Position numbers and translations under genes: made by a program. From Xylophilus rhododendri (GTDB lineage: Bacteria > Pseudomonadota > Gammaproteobacteria > Burkholderiales > Burkholderiaceae_C): 64,000 bases of DNA. The stretch lies in contig NZ_CP047650.1 in assembly GCF_009906855.1 (NCBI RefSeq), positions 1,798,001-1,862,000 of the forward strand, read 5' to 3'. The first letter of the stretch is position 1; each line of letters opens with the position of its first letter. Positions 18,864 to 33,236 of this stretch are shown in pieces. Below the pieces are notes generated by a model. That model was not told the DNA's origin. It ran no database searches and was given only the letters and a program-made list of their open reading frames with translations.

Positions 18864-19753
18864 CCCGGGGACGCGAACGCTTCAGCCATCCATTCGATGA
18901 ACACCCGCAGCCGCGCCGAAGGATGGCGCGAGCGCGGATACAGCACCGACACCGGCATGGTCGGCGGCCGCAGCGCGGGCAGCAGTTCGACCAGGGCGCC
19001 GCTCTGCAGTTCGGCCTCGCGGCTGTAGCGCGGCGCCTGGATCAGGCCCAGGCCGGCGCGCGAGGCGGCGGCATAAGTCTCCACGCCGTTGACCGCCAGC
19101 ACGCTGGGCAGGGTCAGCTCGCGCGGCCGGCCGTCCACCAGGAAGACCAGCGGCATCACGCCGCCGGTGGCGGAAGACCGGAAACCCACCATGCGATGGC
19201 CCCGCGCCAGATCGTCCAGCGAGGCCGGCGTGCCATGCCGCGCCAGGTAGGCGGGCGAGGCGCAGGTGACTTCCGGCAGTTCCGCGAGGCGGCGCGCCAC
19301 CAGTTCGCTGTCGGCCAGCTTGCCGGCGCGCAGCACGCAGTCCATGCCCTCGCGCACCAGGTCGGAATAACGGTCGCTCTCGCTGAACTGCAGCTCGATG
19401 CCGGGATAGGCGGCCATGAAGTCCGGCAGGCGCGGCAGCAGGAAATGGCTGGCCAGCGTGCCCTGCACGCCCACATGCAGCAGGCCGTGCGGCCGGGCGC
19501 CGGCGAAGCTGTTGTCGGCCTCCTCCAGGTCGGCGATCAGGCGGATGCAGCGCTGGTAGTAGGCCTCGCCGTCCAGCGTGGGACTGACATGGCGGGTGGT
19601 GCGCTGCAGCAGGCGCACGCCCAGGCGTGCCTCCAGCGACTTGACCGCATCGGTCGCGGAGGAACGTGGCAGGCCCAGGTCCTCGGCTGCCTGGGTGAAG
19701 CTGCGGCACTCCACGATGCGGGTGAAGACACGCATGGTGTCGAAGCGGTCCAT
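18860..19753 (-). CDS. LysR-family transcriptional regulator
   Basis: 297 aa from ATG 19753; the open frame continues upstream but without LysR-like sequence. The N-terminal winged helix (MDRFDTMRVFTRIVECRSFT, AAEDLGLPRSSATDAVKSLE) is followed by the periplasmic-binding-protein-like effector domain (LLHVGVQGTLASHFLLPRLP). It resembles LysR regulators that pair with oxidoreductases. It is divergent from the SDR gene at 19872 across 118 bp, so that gene is its probable target. Confidence 0.9.
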   Translation of the reverse strand: MDRFDTMRVFTRIVECRSFTQAAEDLGLPRSSATDAVKSLEARLGVRLLQRTTRHVSPTLDGEAYYQRCIRLIADLEEADNSFAGARPHGLLHVGVQGTLASHFLLPRLPDFMAAYPGIELQFSESDRYSDLVREGMDCVLRAGKLADSELVARRLAELPEVTCASPAYLARHGTPASLDDLARGHRMVGFRSSATGGVMPLVFLVDGRPRELTLPSVLAVNGVETYAAASRAGLGLIQAPRYSREAELQSGALVELLPALRPPTMPVSVLYPRSRHPSARLRVFIEWMAEAFASPG

Positions 19754-19871
19754 TGTTCGATTTTCCCGGATAGTGATGGCGGTATGGTTAGGATTATTTT
19801 CCAGCCGCGTACAGCTATCGTGGCAGCCATGTCGCCGATGTCCGGCGGACGTATTTGCACAGGAGTCCCTC

Positions 19872-20624
19872 ATGACCGCAGCCACCCACATCTCCAACTC
19901 CAAGGTCGCCCTGGTGACCGGCGCATCGCGCGGCATCGGCGCGGCGATCGCCGAGCGGCTGGCGAGCGACGGCTTCGCCGTCATCGTCAACTACGCGGGC
20001 AGTGAAGGCGCTGCCCGCGAAGTGGTCGGGCGCATCGAAGCCGCTGGCGGCCGGGCCCTGGCCGTGCGTGCCGACGTGGCGGACGCGGCCTCGGTGCGCG
20101 CCATGTTCGAAGCCGCCGAATCCGCCTTCGGCGGCGTGGACGTGCTGGTCAACAACGCCGGGGTGATGAGCCTGTCGACCATCGCCCAGAGCGAGGACGA
20201 GGCCTTCGACCACATGGTCTCGATCAACCTCAAGGGCAGCTTCAACACCCTGCGCGAAGCCGCCCGCCGGCTGCGCGACGGAGGCCGGGTGATCAACCTC
20301 TCCACCACCGTGCTGGCCCTGCTGCAGCCCACCTACGGCATCTATGCCGCCACCAAGGCCGGCGTGGAGGCCCTGACCAGCATCCTGGCCAAGGAGATGC
20401 GCGGCCGCGGCATCACCGTCAACGCCGTGGCGCCGGGACCCACGGCGACCGACCTGTTCCTCAACGGCAAGCCGCCGGAGCTGGTCGAACGCATGGCCAA
20501 GGCCGCGCCGCTGGAGCGCCTGGGCCAGCCCGAGGACATCGCCGCCGCCGTGGCCTTCCTGGCCGGCCCGGACGGTGCGTGGATCAACGGGCAGACCCTG
20601 CGCGCCAACGGCGGCCTGGCCTGA
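19872..20624 (+). CDS. SDR-family NAD(P)-dependent oxidoreductase
   Basis: 250 aa, classical SDR. The nucleotide-binding TGASRGIG is at residues 16-23 and NNAG near 94-97. The catalytic Ser144, Tyr158 and Lys162 (YAATK) are in place. The C-terminus (RLGQPEDIAAAVAFLAGPDG, INGQTLRANGG) is typical of 3-ketoacyl-ACP-reductase-like enzymes. AGGAG at 19861-19865 supports ATG 19872. Substrate unknown; probably controlled by the divergent LysR protein. Confidence 0.92.
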   Translation: MTAATHISNSKVALVTGASRGIGAAIAERLASDGFAVIVNYAGSEGAAREVVGRIEAAGGRALAVRADVADAASVRAMFEAAESAFGGVDVLVNNAGVMSLSTIAQSEDEAFDHMVSINLKGSFNTLREAARRLRDGGRVINLSTTVLALLQPTYGIYAATKAGVEALTSILAKEMRGRGITVNAVAPGPTATDLFLNGKPPELVERMAKAAPLERLGQPEDIAAAVAFLAGPDGAWINGQTLRANGGLA

Positions 20625-20666
20625 CGGCAGCGGGAGCGCCCCGGCCGCTATAAGCTCGGCGCTCCC

Positions 20667-21716
20667 ATGCGAATCCACGAACTGAAACAGCGGCTGCAGT
20701 TGGCCGGCGCCGGCCCCAGCCACGAACAACGCATCCTGCGCAGCTGGTGCCATGCGCTGCCGCGCAATGCCGGCAAACGCAGCCCCGAGACCTTCTTTCC
20801 CTCGGCGCTGATGGCCGCCCTGCCGGCCATCGAGGCCGAACTGGCCGGGCTGGCGCGCATCACCGCCGTGCATCCCGGCGAGGACGGTTCCGAGCGCCTG
20901 CTGGTCACCCTGGCCGATGGCCAGACGGTGGAGAGCGTGCTGCTGCCGCGTGAGGGGCTGTGTGTGTCTTCGCAGGTCGGATGCGCCGTGGGCTGCCGCT
21001 TTTGCATGACCGGCCGCGACGGCCTGCTGCGCCAGGTGGGCAGCGCCGAGATCGTCGCCCAGGTGGCGCTGGCGCGGGCCCGGCGGCCGGTGCGCAAGGT
21101 GGTCTTCATGGGCATGGGCGAGCCGGCCCACAACCTCGACAACGTGCTCGAAGCGATCGAATTGCTGGGCACGATCGGCAACATCGGGCACAAGAACCTG
21201 GTGTTCTCGACCGTGGGCGGTCCGCGGGCCTTCGAGCGGCTGCATCGGTCGGCGGTCAAGCCTGCGCTTGCGCTGTCGCTGCACACCACCCGGCTCGAGC
21301 TGCGTCGCCAGTTGCTGCCGCGTGCGCCGGACATGACTCCCGAGGAACTGGTCGAGGCCAGCGAACGTTATGCCCGCGCCACCGGCTACCCGGTGCAGTA
21401 CCAGTGGGCCCTGCTCGAAGGCGTGAACGACGGCGACGAGGAGATCGAAGGCCTGGTGCGCCTGCTCGCGGGCAAGTACGGCGTGCTCAACCTGATCCCC
21501 TTCAACGCGGTCGATGGCGCCGACTACCAGCGCCCCACGCAAGAGCGCTGCGAACACCTGGCGCGCGAGTTGCACCGGCGCGGCATCCTGACCAAGCTGC
21601 GCTGGTCGGCCGGGCAGGATGTGGAAGGTGGCTGCGGGCAACTGCGGGCTCGGGCGGGGCTGGCGCAGATGGTGTCGCAGCCGGTCCGCGGGCAGGTCAG
21701 CGCAAAAGAAAAATAG
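20667..21716 (+). CDS. RlmN-family radical SAM methyltransferase (RNA adenine C2-methylase-like)
   Basis: 349 aa. The radical-SAM cluster motif is C106-AVG-C110-RF-C113. The two cysteines of the RlmN mechanism are also present: Cys99 in LCVSSQVGC, and Cys323 in GGCGQLRA as the predicted methyl carrier. GMGEPAHNLDNV and NLIPFN are family motifs. RlmN methylates A2503 of 23S rRNA and A37 of some tRNAs. Small departures from canonical RlmN (MTGRDG instead of STGxQG) suggest a paralogue; genomes of this group often carry a second rlmN-like gene. The usual rlmN neighbours (ndk, ispG, hisS) are absent here. Confidence 0.85.
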   Translation: MRIHELKQRLQLAGAGPSHEQRILRSWCHALPRNAGKRSPETFFPSALMAALPAIEAELAGLARITAVHPGEDGSERLLVTLADGQTVESVLLPREGLCVSSQVGCAVGCRFCMTGRDGLLRQVGSAEIVAQVALARARRPVRKVVFMGMGEPAHNLDNVLEAIELLGTIGNIGHKNLVFSTVGGPRAFERLHRSAVKPALALSLHTTRLELRRQLLPRAPDMTPEELVEASERYARATGYPVQYQWALLEGVNDGDEEIEGLVRLLAGKYGVLNLIPFNAVDGADYQRPTQERCEHLARELHRRGILTKLRWSAGQDVEGGCGQLRARAGLAQMVSQPVRGQVSAKEK

Positions 21717-21825
21717 GCCAAAAGGCCAAAACTGAAAAAAAAACCTGGCTCAGTGAAAAAAAAAACTGGGTCTCTGGCTCCCCAAAAAACTTTTTAAGCG
21801 GTCGCAGGAAACTTCACCGGCGCTT
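21717..21825. other. A-tract-rich spacer upstream of the sigma-54 promoter
   Basis: Between the RlmN-like gene and the ureide operon lies a short AT-rich stretch with two runs of nine or more A residues (about 21733-21741 and 21754-21763), then CCCCAAAAAACTTTTTAAG. Such phased A/T tracts usually bend DNA. An intrinsically bent spacer next to a sigma-54 promoter would favour looping by an upstream activator; that role is inference. I find no clear NtrC or IHF site. Confidence 0.4.
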
Positions 21826-21842
21826 TGGCACGCGCCTTGCAT
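21826..21842 (+). promoter_or_regulatory. Sigma-54 (RpoN) promoter of the ureide operon
   Basis: The sequence reads TGGCACG-N4-TTGCAT, matching the established -24/-12 consensus TGGCACR-N4-TTGCW, with the invariant GG and GC exactly 10 nt apart (GG 21827-21828, GC 21839-21840). It lies 46 bp upstream of the allophanate hydrolase start. Sigma-54 promoters commonly serve nitrogen assimilation through NtrC, which fits the operon content. Confidence 0.85.
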
Positions 21843-21844
21843 CT

Positions 21845-21877
21845 CATCTTGTACACATGTTCGTATTCTTCAAGATG
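21845..21877 (+). promoter_or_regulatory. Inverted repeat in the operon leader (candidate operator or RNA hairpin)
   Basis: CATCTTG (21845-21851) and CAAGATG (21871-21877) form a perfect 7-bp inverted repeat around 19 nt. It covers the expected sigma-54 start site near 21852 and contains the self-complementary TGTACA (21850-21855). It may be a binding site for the operon's own GntR regulator, or a leader hairpin. No consensus is matched closely. Confidence 0.35.
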
Positions 21878-21887
21878 GTGCAAACGA

Positions 21888-23618
21888 ATGCCGACTGCCC
21901 AGCCCTCATCGCTGACCCCGTCCGCCAACGCACCGGCCCGCCCGGAAAACGCCTGGATCGCGCCCTGGCCCGCCCCGCTGGCCGGCACTGACGGCGGCCC
22001 GCTCGCCGGCCTGCGTTTCGCCGCCAAGGACAACATCGCCGTCGCCGGCGTGCCCACCACCGCCGCCTGCCCGGCTTTCTCCTTCACGCCGGCGGAGCAC
22101 GCCAATCCGGTGCGGCGTGCGCTGGATGCGGGCGCGCTGCTGCTGGGCAAGACCAACCTCGACCAGTTCGCTTGCGGCCTCAACGGCACCCGCTCGCCCT
22201 ATGGCGCGGTGCCCAATGCTTTCGACGCGGCCTATGTCAGCGGCGGCTCCAGCTCGGGCTCCGCCTATGTGGTGGCCACGGGGCAGGCCGACTTCTCCTT
22301 CGGCACCGACACGGCCGGCTCGGGCCGGGTGCCGGCGGGGTTGAACAACATCGTGGGATTAAAGCCCTCCAAAGGCCTGATCGGCGCGGGCGGCGTGGTG
22401 CCGGCGGCGCAGAGCCAGGACTGCGTTTCCATCTTCGCCACCACCGTGGCGACCGCCGTGAAGGTGCTCGAAACCGTGATGGGCGCGGATCCGGCCGACC
22501 CCTACTCCCGCATTCCGGACATGGCCCGCGAGCCGCTGCCCGCCGCCTTCCGTTTCGGCGTGCCGGCACAGCTCGAATTCTTCGGCGACAGTGCATCGGA
22601 GGCCGCCTTCTACGACGCCCTCGCCGGCCTGGCCGCGCTGGGCGGCACCGCCGTGCCGATCGACTACGCGCCCCTGGCCGAAGCCGCCGCCCTGCTCTAC
22701 GACAGCGCCCTGGTCGCTGAACGCTACGCCGCCGTGCGCGACTTCTTCGACGCCCATCCGGACGAGGTGATCGAGCCGGTGCGCGGCATCCTGGCCGCCG
22801 GCAAGGGCTACACCGCCGCCGACGTCTTCCAGGCCCAGCACCGCCTGCAGGCCCTGGCCGCGCAGGCCGCGACGATCTGGCCCGGCATCGACCTCCTGTG
22901 CGTGCCCACCGCCCCCTGCCACTGCACCATCGCGGCGATGCGCGCCGAACCGGTGCAGCGCAACCGCGAACTCGGCTACTACACCAACTTCGTCAACCTG
23001 CTCGACTACGCCGCCCTGTCGGTGCCCGCCAGCATCCGGCCGGACGGCCTGCCCTTCGGCATCACCCTGATCGGCCCCTGCGGCAGCGACTGGCAGCTGG
23101 CCGAGCTGGGCCAACGCTTCCATCACGCCACCGGGCTGACCCAGGGTGCCACCGCACAAGTGCTGCCCGCGCCGGTGCCGATCGCCCCGCTGCAGCCCGG
23201 GCCGTCCACCCACCTGGCGCTGGCCGTCGTGGGCGCGCATCTGTCGGGCCTGCCGCTCAACGGCCAGCTGACCGAACGCGGCGCGCGGCTGGCCGAGGCC
23301 ACGCAGACCGCACCGCACTACCGCCTCTACGCCCTGCCCGACACCACGCCGCCCAAACCGGGGCTGGGCCGGGTCGCGCCGGGCGAGGACGGCGCCTCCA
23401 TCGCCGTCGAGGTCTGGCATCTGCCCCTGGCCCAGGTCGGCAGCTTCCTCGCCCTGGTGCCGCCGCCGCTGGGCCTGGGCAGCGTGGAGCTGGCCGATGG
23501 CCGCTGGGTGCACGGCTTCATCTGCGAGGGCCATGCCCTGCGGGATGCCCGCGACGTCACCGCATTCGGCGGCTGGCGCGCCTTCGTCGCCTCCCGCACG
23601 ACGCCGCCCGCGGCCTGA
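21888..23618 (+). CDS. atzF: Allophanate hydrolase (AtzF type)
   Basis: 576 aa from ATG 21888; an open frame from 21825 would place the promoter inside the gene. The amidase-signature domain covers residues ~25-450 with the Lys47, Ser121 (SGGSSSG) and Ser145 (TAGSGRVPA) triad. A C-terminal ~115-residue domain follows (LALAVVGAHLSGLPLNGQL; FALVPPPLGLGSVELADG-like), as in AtzF and in the allophanate hydrolase part of urea amidolyase. It converts allophanate to CO2 and two NH3. It is the first gene of the sigma-54 operon and the terminal step of the proposed pathway. No urea carboxylase is nearby, so allophanate must come from the amidohydrolases downstream. Confidence 0.93.
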   Translation: MPTAQPSSLTPSANAPARPENAWIAPWPAPLAGTDGGPLAGLRFAAKDNIAVAGVPTTAACPAFSFTPAEHANPVRRALDAGALLLGKTNLDQFACGLNGTRSPYGAVPNAFDAAYVSGGSSSGSAYVVATGQADFSFGTDTAGSGRVPAGLNNIVGLKPSKGLIGAGGVVPAAQSQDCVSIFATTVATAVKVLETVMGADPADPYSRIPDMAREPLPAAFRFGVPAQLEFFGDSASEAAFYDALAGLAALGGTAVPIDYAPLAEAAALLYDSALVAERYAAVRDFFDAHPDEVIEPVRGILAAGKGYTAADVFQAQHRLQALAAQAATIWPGIDLLCVPTAPCHCTIAAMRAEPVQRNRELGYYTNFVNLLDYAALSVPASIRPDGLPFGITLIGPCGSDWQLAELGQRFHHATGLTQGATAQVLPAPVPIAPLQPGPSTHLALAVVGAHLSGLPLNGQLTERGARLAEATQTAPHYRLYALPDTTPPKPGLGRVAPGEDGASIAVEVWHLPLAQVGSFLALVPPPLGLGSVELADGRWVHGFICEGHALRDARDVTAFGGWRAFVASRTTPPAA

Positions 23619-23667
23619 GCACGGTTTTTGCGCTTTCTTTTTCGATCCCCTTGTTGAGGAGTTCCCG

Positions 23668-24657
23668 ATGCAGCCATCCACCACCCCCCGCCGCCGCGTC
23701 CTGCAAATCGGCGCCACCGCCCTGGGCGCCCTGGCCGCGCCGGCCATCGTGCGGGCGCAGTCCACGCCGAAGATCCGCATCGGCTTCTGGCCCGTTGCGG
23801 CCGGCCTGCCTTTCTTTGCGGCGGTCGACAAGGGCTATTTCAAGGAAGCCGGCCTGGACGTGGAGCCGCTGAAGTTCGCCGGCGCCCAGCAGGTGATGGA
23901 GGCCATGCTCTCCGGCCGCTCCGACGGCAGCGCCAACGGCACCGGCTCGGCCAACCTGGCCATCGGCGAGATCGCCCAGCCCGGCCTGTTCAAGATCTTC
24001 TGCACCAACCCGAGCAACGCGAAGAACGTGCTCGACGAGTTCATCACCGCCAAGGACAGCCCCTACAAGACGGTCGCCGACCTCAAGGGCAAGAAGGTCG
24101 CCTCCGGCCCCGGCATCCAGAACGTGACCCTGTGCAAGACCATGCTGGAGCGCGCCGGCGCCACCGGCGCCACGGTGAGCGAGCTGCCCATCGGCCAGCA
24201 TGTGGCCGCGCTGGTCGCCGGCCAGGTCGATGCCTGCTACACCCTGGAGCCCACCGGCACCGTCGGCCGCATGAACGGCACCACCCGGGTGATCGAAGCC
24301 GGTGTCGTCGCCAAATACATCCTGGGCGATGCGATGGCGCCCTGGCACGGCGGCGCGGCCAGCCTGACCAGCGAGTTCATCAAGAAGAACCCCGAGGCCG
24401 CCAAGAAATTCATCGCCGCCTATGCCCGCGGCGTGGAGCTGGTGCGCAGCAAGCCCGAGGATGCGCGCCAGTACATGAAGGGCTACACGGCCATCGAGGG
24501 CCCGCTCACCGCCGAGGTGCCGCTGGCCGCCTACATGCTCTACAACGAGTTCAAGCCGGCCGACCTGGCCTACTTCCAGAAGTTCTACGACCTGTTCACC
24601 GAGAAGGGCATCTTCGACAAGAAGGTCGTCGTGGACAGCCTGATCTACAAGGGCTGA
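23668..24657 (+). CDS. ABC transporter substrate-binding protein (NMT1/SsuA-like)
   Basis: 329 aa. The N-terminus PRRRVLQIGATALGALAAPA, ending VRAQ, is a secretion signal with a twin-arginine-like start. The mature part is an NMT1/SsuA-type periplasmic binding protein (IRIGFWPVAAGLPFFAAVDK, YFKEAGLDVEPLKF, LVAGQVDACYTLEPTG). GAGGAG precedes ATG 23668. Together with the following permease and ATPase it forms a complete importer. The position inside the operon makes a ureide (biuret, triuret or similar) the likely ligand; this is inference. Confidence 0.9.
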   Translation: MQPSTTPRRRVLQIGATALGALAAPAIVRAQSTPKIRIGFWPVAAGLPFFAAVDKGYFKEAGLDVEPLKFAGAQQVMEAMLSGRSDGSANGTGSANLAIGEIAQPGLFKIFCTNPSNAKNVLDEFITAKDSPYKTVADLKGKKVASGPGIQNVTLCKTMLERAGATGATVSELPIGQHVAALVAGQVDACYTLEPTGTVGRMNGTTRVIEAGVVAKYILGDAMAPWHGGAASLTSEFIKKNPEAAKKFIAAYARGVELVRSKPEDARQYMKGYTAIEGPLTAEVPLAAYMLYNEFKPADLAYFQKFYDLFTEKGIFDKKVVVDSLIYKG

Positions 24658-24659
24658 CC

Positions 24660-25496
24660 ATGGCCGACGCCGCCACCACCAAAGCCGCACCGGCCGCCTG
24701 GACGCCGCCGGCCGCCAACGCCACGGCCTTCGTGCCCAAACGGCCCCTGTGGGACCGCCTGCTGCCCTTCATCGGCCCGGTCGTGCTGTTCATCCTCTGG
24801 GACCTGGTGGTGCGGCTGGGCTTCATCAAGCCGATCCTGCTGCCCACGCCGCTCGATACCCTGGTCGCCCTGGTCACCGGCCTGGCCGGCGGGCCGCTGC
24901 TGACCGACTTCGCGGTGACCGTCTGGCGCACGCTGCAGGCCTTCGTCATCGCCGCGGTGGTGGGCGTGCCGCTGGGCGTGCTGCTGGGCAGCAACGAGCG
25001 GGTCTACCGCAGCGTGGAGTTCCTGGTGGACTTTTTCCGCTCCACGCCCTCGTCGGCGCTGATCCCGCTGTTCCTGCTGATCTTCGGCGTGTCGGACATC
25101 AACAAGGTGGCCATCGCCGCCTTCGGCGCCTTCCTGATCGTGATCTTCAACAGCGCCTACGGCGTCATCAATGCCCGCAAGCAGCGGGTGATGGCCGCCA
25201 AGGTGATGGGCGCCTCGCGCTGGCAGGTGTTCAAGGACGTGCTGATCTGGGAGAGCCTGCAGCCCAGCTTCGTCGGCCTGCGCTCGGCCGTGTCGATGGC
25301 GCTGGTGATCGTCATCGTGGCCGAGATGTTCATCGGCTCGGACGCGGGCCTCGGCCACCGCATCATCGATGCGCAGCAGGTGCTCAACGTCAAGAGCATG
25401 TATGCGGCGATCCTGTCGGCGGGCGCTCTCGGCTACGCTCTCAACATCCTGTTCTTAATCGCCGAACGCAAGATCGTTCACTGGAGTGGTCGATGA
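24660..25496 (+). CDS. ABC transporter permease (BPD_transp_1, SsuC/TauC-like)
   Basis: 278 aa with about six membrane segments, beginning LLPFIGPVVLFILWDLVVRL. The EAA-type cytoplasmic loop is present (KVMGASRWQVFKDVLIWESL, residues ~180-199). It is the inner-membrane channel of the importer whose binding protein ends 2 bp upstream; its stop overlaps the ATPase start by 4 nt. Family is clear, substrate inferred from operon. Confidence 0.92.
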   Translation: MADAATTKAAPAAWTPPAANATAFVPKRPLWDRLLPFIGPVVLFILWDLVVRLGFIKPILLPTPLDTLVALVTGLAGGPLLTDFAVTVWRTLQAFVIAAVVGVPLGVLLGSNERVYRSVEFLVDFFRSTPSSALIPLFLLIFGVSDINKVAIAAFGAFLIVIFNSAYGVINARKQRVMAAKVMGASRWQVFKDVLIWESLQPSFVGLRSAVSMALVIVIVAEMFIGSDAGLGHRIIDAQQVLNVKSMYAAILSAGALGYALNILFLIAERKIVHWSGR

Positions 25497-26314
25497 GCAC
25501 CGTGATCAACGGCCCGGTCTATGCCGACGTGCCGCCACCCGTCTTCTCGCCCGGCCCGGCCGGCACCCACGTCACCATCCGGGGGCTGACCAAGTACTTC
25601 GCCGGCTGGCCGCTGTACGAGAACTTCGACCTCGACATTCCCAAGCACAAGATCGTGTCGGTCTTCGGGCCCAACGGCTGCGGCAAGTCCACGCTGATCA
25701 ACATGATCGCCGGCCTGATCCCGATCGACAGCGGCGAGATCCTGTTCGACGGCAAGTCGCTGAAGGACACCAAGATCGGCTACGTCTTCCAGAACTACCG
25801 CGAGGCGATGTTCCCGTGGATGCGCACCATCGACAACATCGCCTATCCGCTCAAGCTCGAAGGCCGCAGCAAGGCGGAAGTCGACCGGCGCATGGCCGAA
25901 CTCGTCGCCTCCTTCGACGTGAAGTTCGACCTGAACCGTTTCCCCTACGAACTCTCCGGCGGCCAGCAGCAGACGGCCTCCATCATGCGGGCCCTGGCGC
26001 CCAACCCGGAGGTGCTCTTCCTCGACGAGCCCTTCTCCGCACTGGACTTCGAGATGACCCTCTTCATCCGCGAAAAGCTGCAGGAGGTCTTCATGCAGAC
26101 CGGCACCACCATGCTGCTGGTCTCGCACGACCTGGAAGAGGCCGTGTACCTGGCCGACGAAGTGCTGCTGCTGACCAAGCGCCCCACCCGCGTGGCCGAG
26201 ATCCTGCGCTACGGCGACCCGCGCCCGCGCACGGTGGAGACCCTCAGCCAGCCGAGCTTCGTGGCGATGAAAAAGCACAGCCTGGAGATCTTCCAGCGCG
26301 AGGTGCGGCGATGA
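25493..26314 (+). CDS. ABC transporter ATP-binding protein (SsuB/TauB-like)
   Basis: 273 aa. Walker A GPNGCGKST is at residues 59-67, signature LSGGQQQ at 154-160, Walker B VLFLDEP at 174-180, and an H-loop in LLVSHDLEEA. It drives uptake through the permease upstream. Its stop overlaps the start of atzG by 4 nt (ATGA), so transporter and enzymes are translationally coupled. Confidence 0.94.
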   Translation: MSTVINGPVYADVPPPVFSPGPAGTHVTIRGLTKYFAGWPLYENFDLDIPKHKIVSVFGPNGCGKSTLINMIAGLIPIDSGEILFDGKSLKDTKIGYVFQNYREAMFPWMRTIDNIAYPLKLEGRSKAEVDRRMAELVASFDVKFDLNRFPYELSGGQQQTASIMRALAPNPEVLFLDEPFSALDFEMTLFIREKLQEVFMQTGTTMLLVSHDLEEAVYLADEVLLLTKRPTRVAEILRYGDPRPRTVETLSQPSFVAMKKHSLEIFQREVRR

Positions 26315-26529
26315 GCGGCCCGCTCCCCGACAAGGCCGCGCAGGAGCGCTATGTGGACGCCACCGCCGCGCTCATCGGCCTGCCGCTGGCGGCGGACCAC
26401 CGCCCCGGCGTGCTCGGCTTCTTCGCCCTGGCCGCCTCCATGGCCGCGGCCATCGAGGCGGTGCCGCTGACGCCGCACGACGACTCGCCGATGCGTTTCG
26501 AACCCGTTTCCCCGCGCGAGGCCGCATGA
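26311..26529 (+). CDS. atzG: AtzG-like small subunit (DUF4089) of 1-carboxybiuret hydrolase
   Basis: 72 aa, easily missed. It starts in the ATPase stop and ends within the atzE start, both 4-nt overlaps. The sequence ([20 protein letters not shown], then [17 protein letters not shown]) matches the DUF4089/AtzG pattern of two helices followed by an extended tail. Known AtzG is a GatC-like partner needed for stability and activity of AtzE. Gene order AtzG-AtzE is the same as in cyanuric acid degraders and in the hpxX-hpxY pair of oxalurate clusters. Confidence 0.85.
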
Positions 26530-27929
26530 CCCAGGCCACCGAACTCCTGCTGGGCGACGCGGCCGGCATGGCCGCCGCGGTGCGTGCCGGACAGATCAGC
26601 GCCACCGCCCTGGTCCAGGCCAGCCTGGACCGCATCGCCGCCACCGACGGCAGCGTCAACGCCTTCACCGCCCTGGTGCAGGAACGGGCGCTGACCCGCG
26701 CCTGGATGCTCGACCATGCGGGCGCGAGCCAGAAGGCCAAGCCCCTGTTCGGCGTGCCCTTCGCGGTGAAGAACCTGTTCGACGTCGAAGGCATGCCCAC
26801 GCTGGCCGGCTCGAAGATCGAACGCGCCAGTCCGCCGGCCGGGCAGGATGCCCTGCTGGTCAGGCGCCTGGAGGATGCCGGCGCGGTGCTGGTCGGCGCC
26901 CTCAACATGGACGAGTACGCCTACGGCTTCACCACCGAGAACAGCCACGAAGGCCCGGTGCACAACCCGCACGACCTGGCACGCATCGCGGGCGGCTCCT
27001 CCGGCGGCTCGGCGGCGGCGGTGGCGGCCGGCCAGGTGCCGCTGACACTCGGCTCGGACACCAACGGCTCGATCCGTGTGCCCGCATCGCTGTGCGGCAT
27101 CTTCGGCCTGAAGCCCACCTTCGGCCGGCTGCCACGTACGCGCACCTACCCCTTCGTCTCCAGCCTGGACCACCTGGGCCCCTTCGCCCGCAGCACCCGC
27201 GACCTGGCCCTGGCCTACGACGCGATGCAGGGCCACGACGCGGGCGACCCCGGCTGCGCCAGGCGCGAGGCCCAGCCCGTCTCCGCCCTGCTGGATGCGG
27301 GCACCACCGGCCTGCGCATCGGCATCCTCGGCGGCTGGTTCCAGGACCGCGCCGGACCCGAGGCCCGCGCCGCCGTCGCCCGGGTCGCCGAGGCACTGGG
27401 CGCGCGCGAGACGGTCGAGCTGCCGCTGGTGGAAGCCGGCCGCGCCGCCGCCTTCCTCATCACCAATGCGGAAGGCGCCGCGCTGCACCTGGACGACCTG
27501 CGCCAGCGCGCCGCCGATTTCGAACCCCTGTCGCGCGACCGCTTCCTGGCCGGCGCCCTGCTGCCCGCCGCCTGGATCGCCCGCGCCCAGCGGGTGCGCC
27601 AGCAATATGCCGAGGCCGCCGCCCGGGTCTTCGAACGCTTCGACATCCTGCTCGCGCCCTCCACACCCTGCCCGGCCACCACCATCGGCCAGGAGTTCTT
27701 CGACATCGGCGGCCAGCCGCTGCAGGTGCGGCCCAATATGGGGCTGCTGACCCAGCCGATCTCCTGCATCGGCCTGCCGGTCTGCTCGGTGCCGGTGTGG
27801 GGCGCGCACGAACGCCTGCCCATCGGTGTGCAACTGATCGCCGCGCCCTGGCGCGAAGACCTGGCGCTGCGTGTCTCCGCCTTCCTGGAGGAGGCCGGCA
27901 CGGTCTATGCACCGGTGGCGCCCCTGTGA
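26526..27929 (+). CDS. atzE: AtzE-family amidohydrolase (1-carboxybiuret hydrolase, catalytic subunit)
   Basis: 467 aa, amidase-signature enzyme. The predicted catalytic triad is Lys82 (FAVKNLFD), Ser158 ([10 protein letters not shown]) and Ser182 ([10 protein letters not shown]). The paired upstream AtzG-like gene and the downstream AtzH-like gene distinguish it from ordinary amidases or GatA. Known AtzE deaminates 1-carboxybiuret to 1,3-dicarboxyurea. The close relative HpxY of oxalurate metabolism is the main alternative; the operon's AtzF favours a ureide substrate. Confidence 0.85.
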
Positions 27930-27946
27930 TGTTGCAAAGGCCTTCC

Positions 27947-28327
27947 ATGGAAACCCAGATCAATCTGCCCGAGGTGCTGGCCGAGGTCACCGACGCCTTC
28001 TACCGCTACGAGGACGCGCTGGTGCACAACAAGGTCGAGGTGCTCGACGAACTGTTCTGGGACAGCGTGCACACCCTGCGCTACGGCGCCACCGAGAACC
28101 TCTACGGCTACGCGCAGATCCAGGCCTTCCGCGCCGCCCGGCCCTCGGCCGGCCTGGCGCGCGAGCTGCTGCAGGTGGTGATCACCAGCTACGGCCAGGA
28201 CTTCGCCACCGCCAACTGCGAGTTCCAGCGCATCGGCAGCAGCAGCACCGGCCGCCAGAGCCAGACCTGGATGCGCACCGCGCAGGGCTGGCGGGTGGTC
28301 GCCGCCCATGTCAGCCCGCTGGGCTGA
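27947..28327 (+). CDS. atzH: AtzH/HpxZ-like protein (DUF3225, SnoaL-like fold)
   Basis: 126 aa from ATG 27947, supported by AAAGG 6 nt upstream; an ATG overlapping the atzE stop (27929) is in frame but lacks such a site. The sequence ([49 protein letters not shown]) is a NTF2/SnoaL-like DUF3225 protein. The AtzH homologue was reported as a 1,3-dicarboxyurea deaminase giving allophanate; HpxZ is its relative in oxalurate clusters. It would link AtzE to AtzF here. Confidence 0.83.
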
Positions 28328-28352
28328 CCCTGAAGCACCCGACGAGGCCCGC

Positions 28353-29030
28353 ATGACCACCATCGAAGACGCCCAACCCTTCGCCTTCCGCTTCGACCCG
28401 GCGCACACCGCCCTGGTCATCATCGACATGCAGCGCGACTTCATCGAGCCCGGCGGTTTCGGCGAGACCCTGGGCAACGACGTCTCCCTGCTCGAAGCCA
28501 TCGTGCCCGCCTGCCGCTCGGTGCTGCTGGCCTGGCGCGCGGCCGGCGGCCTGGTGGTGCACACCCGCGAATCGCATGCGGCGGACCTGTCGGACTGCCC
28601 GCCCGCCAAGCTCAACCGCGGCGAGCCGCGCCTGCGCATCGGCGACGCCGGTCCCATGGGCCGCATCCTGATCGCCGGCGAGCCGGGCAACCAGATCATC
28701 CGGGCGCTGGCGCCCGTGCCGGGCGAATGGGTGATCGACAAGCCCGGCAAGGGCGCCTTCTACGCCACCGGCCTGCACGAGCGGCTGCAGATCCGCGGCG
28801 TGCGCCAGCTGATCTTCATGGGCGTGACCGCCGAGGTCTGCGTGCAGACCAGCATGCGCGAGGCCAACGACCGGGGCTACGACTGCCTGCTGCTGGAAGA
28901 CTGCACCGAGAGTTATTTCCCCGCCTTCAAGGCCGCCACGCTGGAGATGGTGCGGGCCCAGGGCGGCATCGTGGGCTGGACGGCCGGCAGCGAATCGCTC
29001 TTGACCGCCCTGGCAGGCGGGACAAGCTGA
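28353..29030 (+). CDS. Isochorismatase-fold cysteine amidohydrolase (triuret or biuret hydrolase type)
   Basis: 225 aa from ATG 28353. The predicted Asp25 (IIDMQRDF), Lys130 (DKPGKGAF) and Cys163 ([10 protein letters not shown]) form the cysteine-hydrolase triad. The family includes biuret hydrolase BiuH, triuret hydrolase TrtA and ureidoacrylate hydrolase RutB. DKPGKGAF and the operon context (AtzG, AtzE, AtzH, AtzF) point to a biuret/triuret-type substrate. A triuret hydrolase would make 1-carboxybiuret, the AtzE substrate; a biuret hydrolase would make allophanate directly. I cannot choose from sequence alone. Confidence 0.75.
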
Positions 29031-29047
29031 GCGACTACCATTTCCCG

Positions 29048-29776
29048 GTGCCCGCCTCCTCTCCCGTGACACCCGCTGCGCCCAAGGCCGAGACGGCCGC
29101 GTTTCGTTCGCGGGCGGACGATACCTACGCGCTGCTCAAGCGCGACATCGCCGAATTCCGGCTGTTGCCGGGCGACCGGTTCACCGAGGGCGAGGTCAGC
29201 GAGCGGCTGGGCGTCTCGCGCACGCCTGTGCGGCAGGCGCTGTTCCGGCTGCAGCAGGAGGGTTTCGTCGAGGTGCTGTTCCGCGCCGGCTGGCGGGTGC
29301 TGCCCTTCGACTTCGACGAGTTCGAGCAGCTCTACGACCTGCGGCTGGTGCTGGAGACCACGGCCGTGGCCCGGCTCTGCGAGGATGCCCCTCGGGTCGA
29401 CCATGCCCGGCTGCAGGCCCTGGCCGCGATCTGGCTGGTGCCGGTGGAAGCGCGCAGCACCGATACCGCGCAGGTGTCGGGCTGGGACGAGGAGTTCCAC
29501 TGCGAGCTGGTGGCGGCCGCGGGCAACGGGCCGATGACGCGGGTGCATCGGGACATCACCGACCGCATCCGCATCATCCGGCGGCTGGACTTCACCCAGC
29601 AGCCGCGCATCACGGCCACCTACGACGAGCATGCGCAGATCCTTCATGCGATCCTGGCGCGGCGCGGCAAGCAGGCGGCGCTGCTGCTGCGCAGTCATAT
29701 CGAAACCAGCCAGGCGGAGGTGCGCAAGATCACGCTGCACCAGGTTTATCTGGCTCGCCAAGGAGGACGGACTTGA
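29048..29776 (+). CDS. GntR-family regulator (FCD subfamily)
   Basis: About 242 aa. The winged helix (YALLKRDIAEFRLLPGDRFT, VSERLGVSRTPVRQALFRLQ) and the helical FCD effector domain (FEQLYDLRLVLETTAVARLC, DEEFHCELVAAAGNGPMTRV, HILAR-like end) are clear. No ATG is available; GTG 29048 or GTG 29066 are the only plausible in-frame starts, and neither has a strong ribosome site. It lies 17 bp after the amidohydrolase and probably senses a pathway intermediate. Composition becomes G/T rich after its end, towards palindrome 2. Confidence 0.85.
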   Translation: MPASSPVTPAAPKAETAAFRSRADDTYALLKRDIAEFRLLPGDRFTEGEVSERLGVSRTPVRQALFRLQQEGFVEVLFRAGWRVLPFDFDEFEQLYDLRLVLETTAVARLCEDAPRVDHARLQALAAIWLVPVEARSTDTAQVSGWDEEFHCELVAAAGNGPMTRVHRDITDRIRIIRRLDFTQQPRITATYDEHAQILHAILARRGKQAALLLRSHIETSQAEVRKITLHQVYLARQGGRT

Positions 29777-29927
29777 AGATTCTTTTGATGTTGCTGGTGG
29801 TGGGGGCTCTGGGGGGCTGTACGGCTACCGGGTCTTCGTCGTCGCGGGGGGCGTCTTCGGGGGTGGTGGGGGTCGGGTTGAGGTGTTTGGGGATATTGAT
29901 GCGGGGGTGGGGCGGGTTTCTCGCTGA
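29773..29927 (+). pseudogene. Small lipoprotein-like gene, apparently frameshifted
   Basis: A TTG start at 29773 overlaps the GntR stop and opens MKILLMLLVVGALGGC, a convincing lipoprotein signal with lipobox GALGGC. In that frame the sequence soon becomes Gly/Val-rich and ends at an unrelated stop near 29937. In another frame the downstream part reads VEVFGDIDAGVGRVSR then stop at 29925-29927. That ending resembles, from memory, short Burkholderiales lipoproteins ending in VYGxIDxGV. A one-base indel in the G-runs around 29850-29875 would join the halves. It may be a real frameshift or a sequencing error. Confidence 0.35.
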
Positions 29928-29965
29928 TCTGGTTTGAATCTTTTTTGGGGTTCTGTTTCCCCGTT

Positions 29966-30600
29966 GGGGGGCGGTTCTCCTGCGGAGGGCGGAGCTGGGG
30001 CTGCGCGCCCCAGACCGCGCTCACTTTCTTTGCTTCGCCAAAGAAAGTAAGCAAAGAAAGGCGACCCGACACCCGAGGCCCTTCGGGCACCGCTGCGGTA
30101 CTCGCAAAGGCGGGTCCACGACAACTCGCCTTCGGCTCAAACAGGTCGTGGCCCTGATCCGCCTTTGCTCCGTTCCTCGCTCTCGGGCTCACGGGACCCG
30201 GATACGGGGACAGCGGCTGCTTCGCAGCGCAACGGGCCGTCGCTGCGCTCGGCCCACGCTGAAATGCGGCCGATGCCAAAGGGCGGGTATTCAATCAGAG
30301 GCCGAGCGAAGCGACGGCCCGTCGCCCTGCGAAGCAGTGGCTGCCCCCGCTCCCCGGGTCCCGTCTGCGGGTGAGTGAGGAGCGCAGCAAAAGCGGATCA
30401 GGGCCACGACCTGTTTGAGCGAAGCGAGTTGTCGTGGACCCCGCTTTTGCGAGCACCGCAGCGTGCCCCCTCCGAAGGAGGGGGACTCCCGCAGCCGGGT
30501 CGCCTTTCTTTGCTTACTTTCTTTGGCGAAGCAAAGAAAGTGAGCGCGGTCTGGGCGCGCAGCCCCAGCCCCGCCCTCCGCAGAGGAGAACCACCCCTCC
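29966..30600. repeat. Giant imperfect palindrome 2 between convergent genes
   Basis: Left arm about 29966-30255, right arm about 30296-30600, loop about 40 nt. The arms are near-identical when read on opposite strands, e.g. CTGCGGAGGGCGG, GCTCACTTTCTTTGCTTCGC, GTCCACGACAACTCGC, CAAACAGGTCGTGGCCCTGA. Each arm contains a perfect hairpin ACTTTCTTTG-CTTCGC-CAAAGAAAGT, the counterpart of the hairpin in palindrome 1. The element separates the GntR operon (+) from the MFS gene (-), whose open frame runs through the right arm. Similar repeats are, to my knowledge, scattered in Xanthomonas and Comamonadaceae genomes. Confidence 0.92.
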
Positions 30601-31814
30601 GCCAGGAGACAAACAACATCAATGCGGCACCCGCTGCACATGCCCCTCCCCCTCTCCAGCCCCCGCACCGCCCGAGTCCCACAGGCCACAACCCCACCCA
30701 CCATCCAGAAGATCCCCCCAATCCCCAACACAGCCCCCGCAGCACCAAACACGATAGGCACAGCCACACTGGAAGCATTGATGAACATCAGCCGCAAGCC
30801 CAGCGCCTCCCCCTGCCGGGAAGGCGGCGTGATGTGGTGCAGCATGCTCATCACCATCGGCTGCACAGCCCCCAGCGCAAAGCCCAGCAGCACGGAACAC
30901 AGCCCCATCAGCAGCGCAGTAGGCAACAGCGGATACACAGCGAACAGCACCGCGGTGCTGAGGGTGGACACGGTGATCACATCCCGCTCATCCCGCCCCG
31001 CCGTCAACACCGGCAGCACGATGCGGATCGCAGCAGCCGCGATGGCGAACGCCCCCAGGATGGTCCCGATGGTCGAAGCACCCAGCCCCCGCTCGTGGCC
31101 CAGCAGGGGCACGACGAAGGCATGCACATCCCAGCTCGAAGACTGCAGCCAGTTGCAGAACAGCAGCCGCCGGAACATCGGCGCGCGCAGCAGGTCGATC
31201 GCCCGGTTGGGCTTGCCCTCGGCATCCACCGACGGCGGCTCGCTGGCCAGCTCGGTCACATCCCGCGCCAGGTACCAGGCCAGCAGCGGCAGCAGCGCCA
31301 TCACCACGAAACAGATGCGGAAACCCCAGAGGTCGCTGGGTGTGGCCCCCGCATGGTCGATCAGCATGCCGGCGCAGAAAGGGCCGATGAAGTTGCCCAC
31401 CGCCGGCGCGATGGCCAGCCAGCTGAAGGCCTGCTTGAGCTGCGCCGCACCGGTGGCCGCGCGGCCGACATGGCGCTGCAGCGCGATCACGACCACGCCG
31501 GTGCCGCCGCCGGTCAGCAAGGCCGCCACGCAGAACGCGGGAAACACCGGCAGCAGCGCCGCCAGGCCCGCGCCGGCGCAGGAGGCGATGGCCGCCAGGG
31601 TGACCGGCAGGCGCACGCCGTGCCGGTCGGCGAAGCGGCCGGCGGGCAGCGCCAGGAAGACCTGGGTCAGCGCGAACAGGGCTACCAGGATGCCGACCGA
31701 GGCGGCGCTGTAGCCCTGCTGCAGCGCCAGCAGCGGCACCGCCAGGCGCGTGCCCGCCATGGTCGAATGGATGAAGACCTGGATCGGGATGACACGCGCT
31801 AGTTGGGAGCTCAT
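30291..31814 (-). CDS. MFS transporter whose frame reads through palindrome 2
   Basis: 507 aa as an open frame, but only about the first 385 residues are transporter: twelve hydrophobic segments starting IPIQVFIHSTMAGTRLAVPL, with the MFS loop motif GRFADRHGVRLP near residue 60. The last ~115 residues (for example AHFLCFAKESKQRKATRLRE) are translated repeat and probably not functional. Another frame ends at 30619, right before the palindrome, so an indel may have removed the native stop. Substrate unknown. The 3' part is strongly skewed: plus-strand 30661-30720 holds C34 A15 G8 T3. Confidence 0.8.
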   Translation of the reverse strand: MSSQLARVIPIQVFIHSTMAGTRLAVPLLALQQGYSAASVGILVALFALTQVFLALPAGRFADRHGVRLPVTLAAIASCAGAGLAALLPVFPAFCVAALLTGGGTGVVVIALQRHVGRAATGAAQLKQAFSWLAIAPAVGNFIGPFCAGMLIDHAGATPSDLWGFRICFVVMALLPLLAWYLARDVTELASEPPSVDAEGKPNRAIDLLRAPMFRRLLFCNWLQSSSWDVHAFVVPLLGHERGLGASTIGTILGAFAIAAAAIRIVLPVLTAGRDERDVITVSTLSTAVLFAVYPLLPTALLMGLCSVLLGFALGAVQPMVMSMLHHITPPSRQGEALGLRLMFINASSVAVPIVFGAAGAVLGIGGIFWMVGGVVACGTRAVRGLERGRGMCSGCRIDVVCLLAEGWFSSAEGGAGAARPDRAHFLCFAKESKQRKATRLRESPSFGGGTLRCSQKRGPRQLASLKQVVALIRFCCAPHSPADGTRGAGAATASQGDGPSLRSASD

Positions 31815-31871
31815 GGAATTGGTTTGTCTCTGATTTTTTTGGGGAGAAGTCTCGGCGCGAAGGTGGCGGGC

Positions 31872-33236
31872 TCAGCCGCTCAGGGGCGGCAGTCCGCTGT
31901 GCTCCGGCGGGCCGGTGGGCAGAAGGTCCGGGTCCGGCAGCGCGCCTTCGAGTGCGTTCTGCGAAAAGCTTTTGGTCGGCTTCACGCCCAGTTCCCGCAG
32001 GCGTTCGGCCTGGGCGATGGCATTGCCGCGTCCGGCCTTCAGGCGCTTGAAGGCTTCGCCGTAGGACTTCTGCGCCCGGTCCAGCGACTTGCCGATCTCC
32101 TCCAGGTCGCCGACGAAGGCGGACAGCTTGTCGTACAGGTCGGCGCCGCGCCGGGCGATTTCCTGGGCATTGCGGTTCTGCTGCTCCTGGCGCCAGAGGT
32201 GGGCCACGGTGCGCACCACGAAGAGCAGGGTCGAGGGGCTGACCAGCAGGACGTTGCGTTTCCAGGCGTCCATGAAGAGCTGCTCGTCCGCGCCCACGGC
32301 CAGCATGAAGGCGGGCTCGATCGGCACGAACATCAGCACGAAGTCGAGCGTCTTCAGGCTGTAGAGCTGCTGGTAGTTGCGCGCGGCCAGGCCCTCGATG
32401 TGGGCGCGCACCGAGGCCAGGTGGCGGCGCTGGGCGATGGCGCGGGCCTCGTCGGTCTCGGCGGCCACGCATTCCTCGTAGGCGAGGAGCGAGACCTTGG
32501 CATCGACCACCAGCTTGCGCTCTTCGGGCAGGTGGATGATGACGTCGGGCTGGGCCCGGCTGCCGTCCTCGCGGGTGTGGTTCTGCTGCACGTGGTATTC
32601 GATGCCGCGGCGCAGGCCGGAGGCTTCGAGCACCCGCTCCAGGATCAGCTCGCCCCAGTTGCCCTGGGCCTTGTTGCTGCCCTTCAAGGCATTGGTGAGG
32701 CTGCGCGCCTCTTCGCCGAGCAGCTTGTTCAGGTCCATCAGCTGGCCGACCTGCTGCGACAGGGCCGAGCGCTGCTTGCCTTCGGCATCGTAGAACTGCT
32801 CGACCTTGCCCTGGAAGTCCGCCAGGCGCAGGCGCAGCGGGTCGAGCAGGTGGCCCAGGCTGGCCTGGTTCTGCTCGGCGAAGCGTTTGCTCTTTTCTTC
32901 GAGGATGTCGTTGGCCAGGGTCTTGAACTGGTTGGAGAGCTCCTCGCGGGTCTGCTGCAGCAGCTCGATCTTCTCGGCCGACTGCTGGCGTTCGGCGCTC
33001 AGCTGGGTCTGCACGGCGGCCAGGCGGGCCTTGGCCATCGAGAGCTCGGCGCCCAGGCCATCGGCGCGGACCTGCGCCTCGGCCAGGCCGCGGGCGCGTT
33101 CGGTCAGGGTGGCGAGTTCGGCCCGGCTTTCGGCGCGGGCCTCGGCCAGCACCTGGCGGCGTGCCAGCCACCAGCCGGCGCCCAGGCCCAGCAGCAGGGC
33201 CAGGCAGGCGATGAGGGCCGTCAGCGCCGCACTCAT
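31872..33236 (-). CDS. rmuC: DNA recombination protein RmuC homologue
   Basis: 454 aa. An N-terminal membrane anchor (LTALIACLALLLGLGAGWWL) is followed by a long coiled coil (residues ~30-130) and the RmuC nuclease-like domain (GNWGELILERVLEASGLRRG, QPDVIIHLPEERKLVVDAKV, FVPIEPAFMLAV). RmuC limits inversions at short inverted repeats in E. coli. It sits 1.3 kb from a giant inverted repeat here, which may be coincidence. The NhaD-like gene lies 18 bp upstream. Confidence 0.94.
   Translation of the reverse strand: MSAALTALIACLALLLGLGAGWWLARRQVLAEARAESRAELATLTERARGLAEAQVRADGLGAELSMAKARLAAVQTQLSAERQQSAEKIELLQQTREELSNQFKTLANDILEEKSKRFAEQNQASLGHLLDPLRLRLADFQGKVEQFYDAEGKQRSALSQQVGQLMDLNKLLGEEARSLTNALKGSNKAQGNWGELILERVLEASGLRRGIEYHVQQNHTREDGSRAQPDVIIHLPEERKLVVDAKVSLLAYEECVAAETDEARAIAQRRHLASVRAHIEGLAARNYQQLYSLKTLDFVLMFVPIEPAFMLAVGADEQLFMDAWKRNVLLVSPSTLLFVVRTVAHLWRQEQQNRNAQEIARRGADLYDKLSAFVGDLEEIGKSLDRAQKSYGEAFKRLKAGRGNAIAQAERLRELGVKPTKSFSQNALEGALPDPDLLPTGPPEHSGLPPLSG

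Follow-up and report, generated by a model that had tools for sequence, protein, structure and literature searches.

At positions 21888-29776 of the window, by which we mean the whole 64-kb stretch of the Xylophilus rhododendri genome analysed here (contig positions 1798001-1862000; genome G000, 5.87 Mb), nine genes form an operon that looks able to take all four nitrogens of triuret without forming biuret, through which the known route passes. All nine are open frames on the plus strand and follow each other in the order AtzF, a three-gene NMT1-type ATP-binding cassette (ABC) importer, AtzG, AtzE, AtzH, an isochorismatase-fold hydrolase and a GntR/FCD regulator (Table 1). Start/stop overlaps of 4 nt connect permease and ATPase (25493), ATPase and AtzG (26311), AtzG and AtzE (26526) and, given a GTG start of AtzH, also AtzE and AtzH (27926; an alternative ATG at 27929 is possible), and the hydrolase gene follows AtzH after 25 bp. 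The initial annotation had described a one-strand operon of these gene families with 4-nt overlaps through its middle, which agrees with the frames, overlaps and family matches found here. It had also placed the start of AtzF at 21826, a position that falls within the promoter; the first in-frame ATG is at 21888. Family matching was run on a translation from 21846 for AtzF and from 29090 for the regulator.

Table 1. Features of the operon and of the region preceding it (positions in the 64-kb window).
Feature	Position	Strand	Match or remark
Sigma-54 (-24/-12) promoter TGGCACGCGCCTTGCA	21826-21841	+	exact consensus match
Palindrome CTTGTACACATG (relatives: CTTGTATACAAG)	21848-21859	+	8 nt past the -12 box; probable operator
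AtzF, allophanate hydrolase	21888-23618	+	TIGR02713 740 bits (cut-off 511); C-terminal domain PF21986
NMT1/SsuA-type substrate-binding protein of ABC importer	23668-24657	+	PF09084; TIGR01728 under cut-off
ABC importer permease	24660-25496	+	PF00528
ABC importer ATPase	25493-26314	+	PF00005; 4-nt overlap with permease
AtzG, predicted 1-carboxybiuret hydrolase small subunit	26311-26529	+	PF13318 46 bits (cut-off 24)
AtzE, predicted 1-carboxybiuret hydrolase catalytic subunit	26526-27929	+	NF006631 700 bits (cut-off 461); 6C62 549 bits
AtzH, probable 1,3-dicarboxyurea decarboxylase	27926-28327	+	6BJT 171 bits; PF11533; NF033625 'HpxZ' 203 bits
TrtA-type triuret hydrolase, isochorismatase fold	28353-29030	+	PF00857; 6XIX 299 bits
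GntR/FCD transcription regulator	29066-29776	+	PF00392, PF07729; GTG start proposed

Identity of the hydrolase and of AtzGEH

Judged by its sequence, the isochorismatase-fold enzyme is the triuret hydrolase TrtA, an assignment on which structure scores, identity, residues, tree and missed BiuH and RutB cut-offs converge. Among solved structures, TrtA from Herbaspirillum (6XIX) scores highest with 299 bits, followed by biuret hydrolases with 214 and 197 bits and RutB with 97 bits, and identity amounts to 67.6% with Herbaspirillum TrtA and 47.7% with BiuH. All 14 active-site and specificity positions that have been defined for TrtA (PMC7948467) are occupied as in that enzyme: the hydrolase reads DFFNEKKATECYQI, while BiuH reads DFYYEKKSTDCTQV. 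The catalytic triad of Asp24, Lys129 and Cys162 is complete, and the residues separating TrtA from BiuH (Phe35, Asn41, Ala134, Glu160, Tyr187 and Ile205, with Gln202) match 6XIX in seven of seven cases. The protein stays below the cut-offs of the models for BiuH (NF050097, about 247 bits vs 370) and RutB (TIGR03614, 93 bits vs 377.95), and scores and residues together exclude an identity as either of them. The tree (306 rows) unites 169 DFFN sequences and one hybrid in a single group (support 0.651) and the 109 BiuH sequences in another (0.942); the groupings that hold 6XIX apart from BiuH reach 0.651 to 0.677, all trees being single FastTree runs with FastTree local support values. A triuret hydrolase had been suggested in the initial annotation, together with a placement among TrtA, BiuH and RutB, and scores, residues and tree now put the enzyme with TrtA; biuret, the other substrate then considered, is unlikely for a protein that sits with TrtA rather than BiuH.

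The sole hybrid among the 170 is the hydrolase of genome G051 (locus L160, 7956-8621), which combines Tyr35 and Tyr41 of BiuH with the other specificity residues of TrtA. Its 320 bits against the BiuH model lie in between both kinds, and it is a candidate for a natural generalist acting on triuret and biuret.

AtzF contains an amidase domain as well as the AH_C domain (PF21986). AtzE surpasses the cut-off of NF006631, a model whose name refers to the AtzE family but which alone does not separate AtzE from HpxY-type enzymes, and overlaps by 4 nt with a PF13318 partner, AtzG, for which no match was obtained in NCBIfam or among solved chains. AtzEG is thus predicted to be a 1-carboxybiuret hydrolase. 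It could be argued that AtzGEH constitutes an oxalurate set of the HpxXYZ type and that the hydrolase has an unrelated role, and NCBIfam does label the AtzH-family gene HpxZ, a label that record annotation also gives to the true AtzH of pADP-1. This reading is extremely improbable, as AtzE is 59.7% identical to pADP-1 AtzE vs 52.6% to Klebsiella HpxY and AtzH 68.6% to its pADP-1 namesake vs 57.5% to the Klebsiella counterpart HpxZ, values on which we exclude an HpxXYZ identity of AtzGEH; moreover, the operon contains no hpxW-like gene among its nine, and AtzF is present. The host genome harbors a second AtzE-AtzH pair (L162, contig C1:3183000-3200000, 8448-12767), located next to genes for nitrile hydratase (both subunits), a TctC-type binding protein and a CobW GTPase, that may take amides produced by nitrile hydratase.

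Promoter and putative operator

The first gene is preceded by a site conforming to the sigma-54 consensus TGGCACG-N4-TTGCW (GG-N10-GC), and this is the sole exact match across the 64 kb. When up to one mismatch is allowed, three matches are found where 1.08 are expected and 5 of 100 shuffles yield as many, so that the weight rests on the place of the site and on its conservation. A site with at most two mismatches is located upstream of AtzF in 19 of the 36 loci with enough sequence before this gene, the window counted, as opposed to 4% of random segments (n=2160). The site is missing from 17 of the 36, in several of which AtzF follows TrtA inside the cluster (e.g. L238-L241, L246, L247). The sigma-54 operon proposed initially is therefore upheld by the exact site before AtzF and its conservation in relatives.

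The palindrome downstream of the promoter (at most three mismatches) is present in all 19 loci with a sigma-54 site, with an identical offset in 13 of them, and in 0.9% of base-shuffled controls. It is probably an operator that the GntR repressor of the operon itself would bind, and because it would overlap the start site we infer that GntR acts here by repression. A TGGTGCA motif at 21876-21882, 16 nt past the palindrome, recurs in many relatives and presumably resembles an NtrC half-site. A scan of 19000-32000 gave no Rfam match at or above the gathering score of its family, and we therefore reject control through a guanidine or other riboswitch.

Predicted triuret route, its distribution and alternatives

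We consider it likely that the operon serves to scavenge nitrogen from triuret on a route that bypasses biuret and involves TrtA, AtzEG, AtzH and AtzF. Nitrogen limitation would switch the operon on via its sigma-54 promoter, the repressor bound to the palindrome at the start site would be released and the importer would bring in a ureide. TrtA would then convert triuret to 1-carboxybiuret and NH3, AtzEG would form 1,3-dicarboxyurea and a further NH3, AtzH would decarboxylate this compound to allophanate and AtzF would yield CO2 and 2 NH3, giving four NH3 per triuret overall; relatives carrying BiuH could go through biuret instead. Each of the enzyme reactions has been reported for relatives, 1-carboxybiuret having been shown to be the product of TrtA (PMC7948467) and the AtzEG and AtzH steps having been described for the cyanuric acid pathway enzymes (PMC6219798), while the chain in this order, without BiuH or TrtB, is one that we infer. 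According to the initial annotation, a triuret route would use every gene of the operon. This holds for the enzyme genes, as TrtA, AtzEGH and AtzF add up to a complete route, and is not supported for the importer.

AtzH deserves closer consideration. Nine pocket residues for the dicarboxylate substrate are listed in PMC6219798, and in an alignment of 101 AtzH-family sequences, numbered by pADP-1 AtzH in which all nine letters match, the protein of the window keeps nine of nine (Tyr22, Arg46, Arg63, Arg66, Arg73, Phe94, Arg96, Gln106, Gln108). Arg66 is conserved in each of the 68 AtzH genes that lie no more than 3 kb from an AtzE-family gene, but replaced (by Leu, Thr, Ser, Cys, Val or Gly) in 17 of 17 TrtA loci without AtzE, while Tyr22, Arg46, Arg63, Arg73, Gln106 and Gln108 are constant in both groups. 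With contig-end loci resolved by genome searches, the TrtA loci without AtzE that have lost Arg66 amount to 24 of 24; the residue is also lost in two loci of unsettled AtzE status and in L245, where TrtA resides on another contig of the genome, and it is kept in three AtzH genes with neither AtzE nearby nor TrtA (L219, L223, L225). Parsimony requires four changes of Arg66 on the tree vs about 24 with shuffled labels. These observations suggest a role of Arg66 in handling the second carboxylate of 1,3-dicarboxyurea, whereas enzymes that have lost it would be those acting on the monocarboxylate 1-carboxybiuret, i.e. the TrtB function; an AtzH-family gene without Arg66 in TrtA loci devoid of AtzEG thus suggests 1-carboxybiuret decarboxylation there. 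Clusters with an AtzH homologue and no AtzEG include Variovorax L060 and the one of G458. It speaks against this role of Arg66 that the AtzH variants named as lowered in PMC6219798 are those of Tyr22, Arg46 and Arg63Lys and not of Arg66, which was therefore not limiting in that coupled assay. A more general proposal, which may equally well hold or fail, is that triuret users have two interchangeable exits from 1-carboxybiuret with the AtzH family as the switch: the Arg66 form would handle the dicarboxylate delivered by AtzEG, the Arg66-less form, which arose about four times and in loci seen only without AtzEG, would do the job of TrtB before BiuH, and the window would be bypass-only, fed by triuret and not by biuret.

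A 115-residue cupin is encoded after TrtA on two alphaproteobacterial plasmids, of Sulfitobacter (L261, 9659-10006) and Rhizobium (L262, 9647-9994), in the very place that is taken by the AtzH-family gene in some other proteobacteria (G458, Pseudomonas luteola). It is possibly another carboxybiuret decarboxylase; TrtB of the literature may be such a cupin or the AtzH-like gene.

With every candidate in the host genome scored, no BiuH was found at the 370-bit cut-off (TrtA itself 246 bits, next hydrolase 154). A model for the cyanuric acid hydrolase AtzD, which recognizes AtzD with 501 bits in the same-genus genome G018 and 491 bits in pADP-1, had no match genome-wide, in line with the absence of this enzyme claimed initially, though the same search was positive in no control genome. 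The occurrence of these genes was surveyed in 299 genomes of the family and in a sample from outside it, both with one genome per species and not independent by descent. Thresholds were E 1e-80 (family) and 1e-70 (outside) for TrtA and 1e-130 for the absence of AtzE; for TrtA, BiuH, AtzH and AtzE, scoring covered a part of the first-look candidates in some or many genomes, which renders the survey absences less firm than the BiuH results for the host and for the eight genomes mentioned below. TrtA is encoded in 79 of the family genomes, BiuH over its cut-off in 73 and an AtzH-family protein in 89 (three weak matches excluded). Every one of the 79 TrtA genomes shows a match to the AtzH family (75 over the cut-off, four under it: G048, G051, G128, G203), 71 have BiuH and 57 AtzE, such that BiuH and AtzE co-occur in 50, BiuH alone is present in 21, AtzE alone in seven including the window and neither in one (G051). 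When every candidate was scored in the eight TrtA genomes lacking BiuH, only TrtA itself appeared at 1e-40; seven of the eight contain AtzE, always within the TrtA cluster. Of the 72 non-family genomes in which TrtA-like genes were detected, 28 have BiuH and AtzE, 19 BiuH only, 16 AtzE only and nine neither. In the same genus, G018 and G212 have BiuH and TrtA without AtzE, G276 has the core without TrtA or BiuH over the cut-off, and G133 has none of TrtA, BiuH over the cut-off and AtzH.

Degradation of triuret via biuret, with AtzH acting as a carboxybiuret decarboxylase and another enzyme hydrolyzing biuret, would conform to the published triuret pathway, which passes through biuret, and to the fact that AtzH-family genes accompany TrtA even without AtzE (22 of 79 family genomes). 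For the window this is quite improbable, since the host genome is without BiuH over the cut-off, the next best candidate having 154 bits, and since its AtzH is of the Arg66 form that occurs in no TrtA locus without AtzE.

The best 80 of at least 572 TrtA loci mostly stem from genera of the Comamonadaceae, e.g. Variovorax, Hydrogenophaga, Polaromonas and Rhodoferax. Gene arrangements were counted in 104 distinct TrtA loci with a length of 14 kb or more. A gene absent from a locus may lie outside the retrieved stretch, as in the case of L256, which is without BiuH while its genome G821 has it. The elements encountered most often are AtzF, the NMT1 importer and AtzGEH, next a block in which a BMP-type importer, in many cases a gene resembling formamidase, BiuH and an ABC ATPase follow each other, and finally TrtA and GntR; it is exactly this block that the window operon lacks. 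The BMP-type importer is found in 76 of the 83 distinct loci with BiuH and in one of the 21 without (L160 of G051). AtzH directly precedes TrtA in nine of the 104 loci, eight of which are without BiuH in the locus and all nine of which have AtzE. The layout of the window operon is also seen in L021, a Hydrogenophaga metagenome-assembled genome.

Some loci show additional features. L042 (3337-4428), L155 (18235-19329), L066, L071 and L254 harbor AtzD-family genes within the cluster or close to it, so that the lower pathway may be common to cyanuric acid and triuret. On an Enterobacter hormaechei IncR plasmid (L260, 1787-11410), genes for AtzF, a BMP-type importer, formamidase, a BiuH-like protein, an ATPase, a TrtA-like protein and GntR are situated between IS1 elements, and a TrtA-like gene at 68% is present on 19 enterobacterial plasmid records among the matches listed.

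Ten family genomes have an AtzH-family gene without TrtA, and six of these carry the bare core of AtzF, importer, AtzGEH and GntR (L163, L218, L221, L222, L224, L226; one of the same genus, G276). If antisense frames of core genes and ATPase paralogues are disregarded, each flanking gene is found in two of the six at most. The core could therefore serve another imported ureide, with TrtA as an accessory that feeds triuret in: the genomes of these six are without BiuH over the cut-off, their loci keep the same sigma-54 site and palindrome, and AtzD too can be inserted in such core clusters. As an account of the window we regard this as unlikely, given that TrtA lies inside the operon, between AtzH and GntR, and that we know of no substrate of AtzEG besides 1-carboxybiuret. 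The dedicated triuret or biuret importer that had been put forward as a new transporter assignment is not supported. Importer, regulator and AtzF-AtzGEH occur as the same set without TrtA, and the same importer type is part of the G458 cluster, so that the ligand could be any ureide. The solved chain nearest to the binding protein is 3qsl, an exported protein without a named ligand, and further solved relatives (sulfonate, THI5 and nitrate proteins) have weak scores.

Several points weigh against the triuret route without biuret that we favor. The six TrtA-less cores show that the core has another use too, and they are the best evidence that triuret is not the sole purpose of importer and core. 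Lack of BiuH and possession of AtzE show no association exceeding chance (Fisher p 0.43 in the family, 0.46 for distinct loci), and the adjacency of AtzH and TrtA partly restates the absence of the BiuH block, because the block, where present, sits between the two genes. A strict rule that TrtA needs BiuH or AtzEG fits 78 of 79 genomes in the family and 63 of 72 outside; the nine of 72 with neither gene make clear that it is not general. The support for the TrtA clade is modest (0.65). With regard to the chemistry, the AtzH reaction was inferred and not directly followed in PMC6219798, and 1-carboxybiuret decarboxylates spontaneously with a half-life of about 20 min (PMC7948467), so that some biuret would leak and be stranded.

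Significance and comparison with known systems

Triuret reaches soil in large amounts as an impurity of urea fertilizer (PMC7948467). If the BiuH-free route holds true, taking BiuH as the marker of triuret or biuret use leads surveys to miss genomes like the present one and to misread others. It would also provide an assignment, at least where TrtA is present, for the atzF-ABC-atzGEH clusters that were described without a role in 2018. Arg66 of AtzH offers a one-residue prediction of which homologues, such as that of the window, act on dicarboxyurea and which on carboxybiuret, and this is testable with purified natural proteins. No description of a TrtA-AtzEGH operon was found in the literature searched, most subscription papers and supplementary figures being outside its scope; within it, triuret and AtzE occur together only in PMC7948467 and PMC12625717.

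The triuret pathway of Herbaspirillum sp. BH-1 consists of TrtA, TrtB, BiuH and AtzF (PMC7948467), a route also described in PMC12625717. AtzEG is named in PMC7948467 as an enzyme for the TrtA product, yet the pathway is drawn via biuret. The window shares with it the entry enzyme TrtA (68% identity) and AtzF, and the Herbaspirillum-like genome G458 (TrtA 92% identical to 6XIX) likewise has an NMT1-type importer and a GntR regulator. In contrast to the Herbaspirillum pathway, the window operon is without BiuH and the BMP-type importer and contains AtzG and AtzE, and its AtzH has Arg66, where the gene after trtA in G458 (locus L182) encodes Cys.

In Klebsiella, the hpx oxalurate genes encode HpxX, an AtzE-family amidohydrolase and HpxZ, homologous to AtzG, AtzE and AtzH, but their neighbours differ and their identity to the window proteins is below that of the pADP-1 proteins. 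Clusters of the atzF-ABC-atzGEH type have been noted in Comamonadaceae and other Burkholderiales, with ABC transporter and amidase genes downstream and no substrate given in the section concerned (PMC6219798). The core of the window has the same architecture, and we identify TrtA here in numerous clusters of this kind, that of the window included. Finally, as in atzDGEHF of Pseudomonas sp. ADP (PMC6219798), AtzG, AtzE, AtzH and AtzF are at hand to lead from 1-carboxybiuret to ammonia. Unlike that system, the window operon has a different gene order, its own in-operon importer and a GntR regulator instead of the LysR type adjoining atzD, and the lower pathway would be entered by a triuret hydrolase rather than by cyanuric acid hydrolase.

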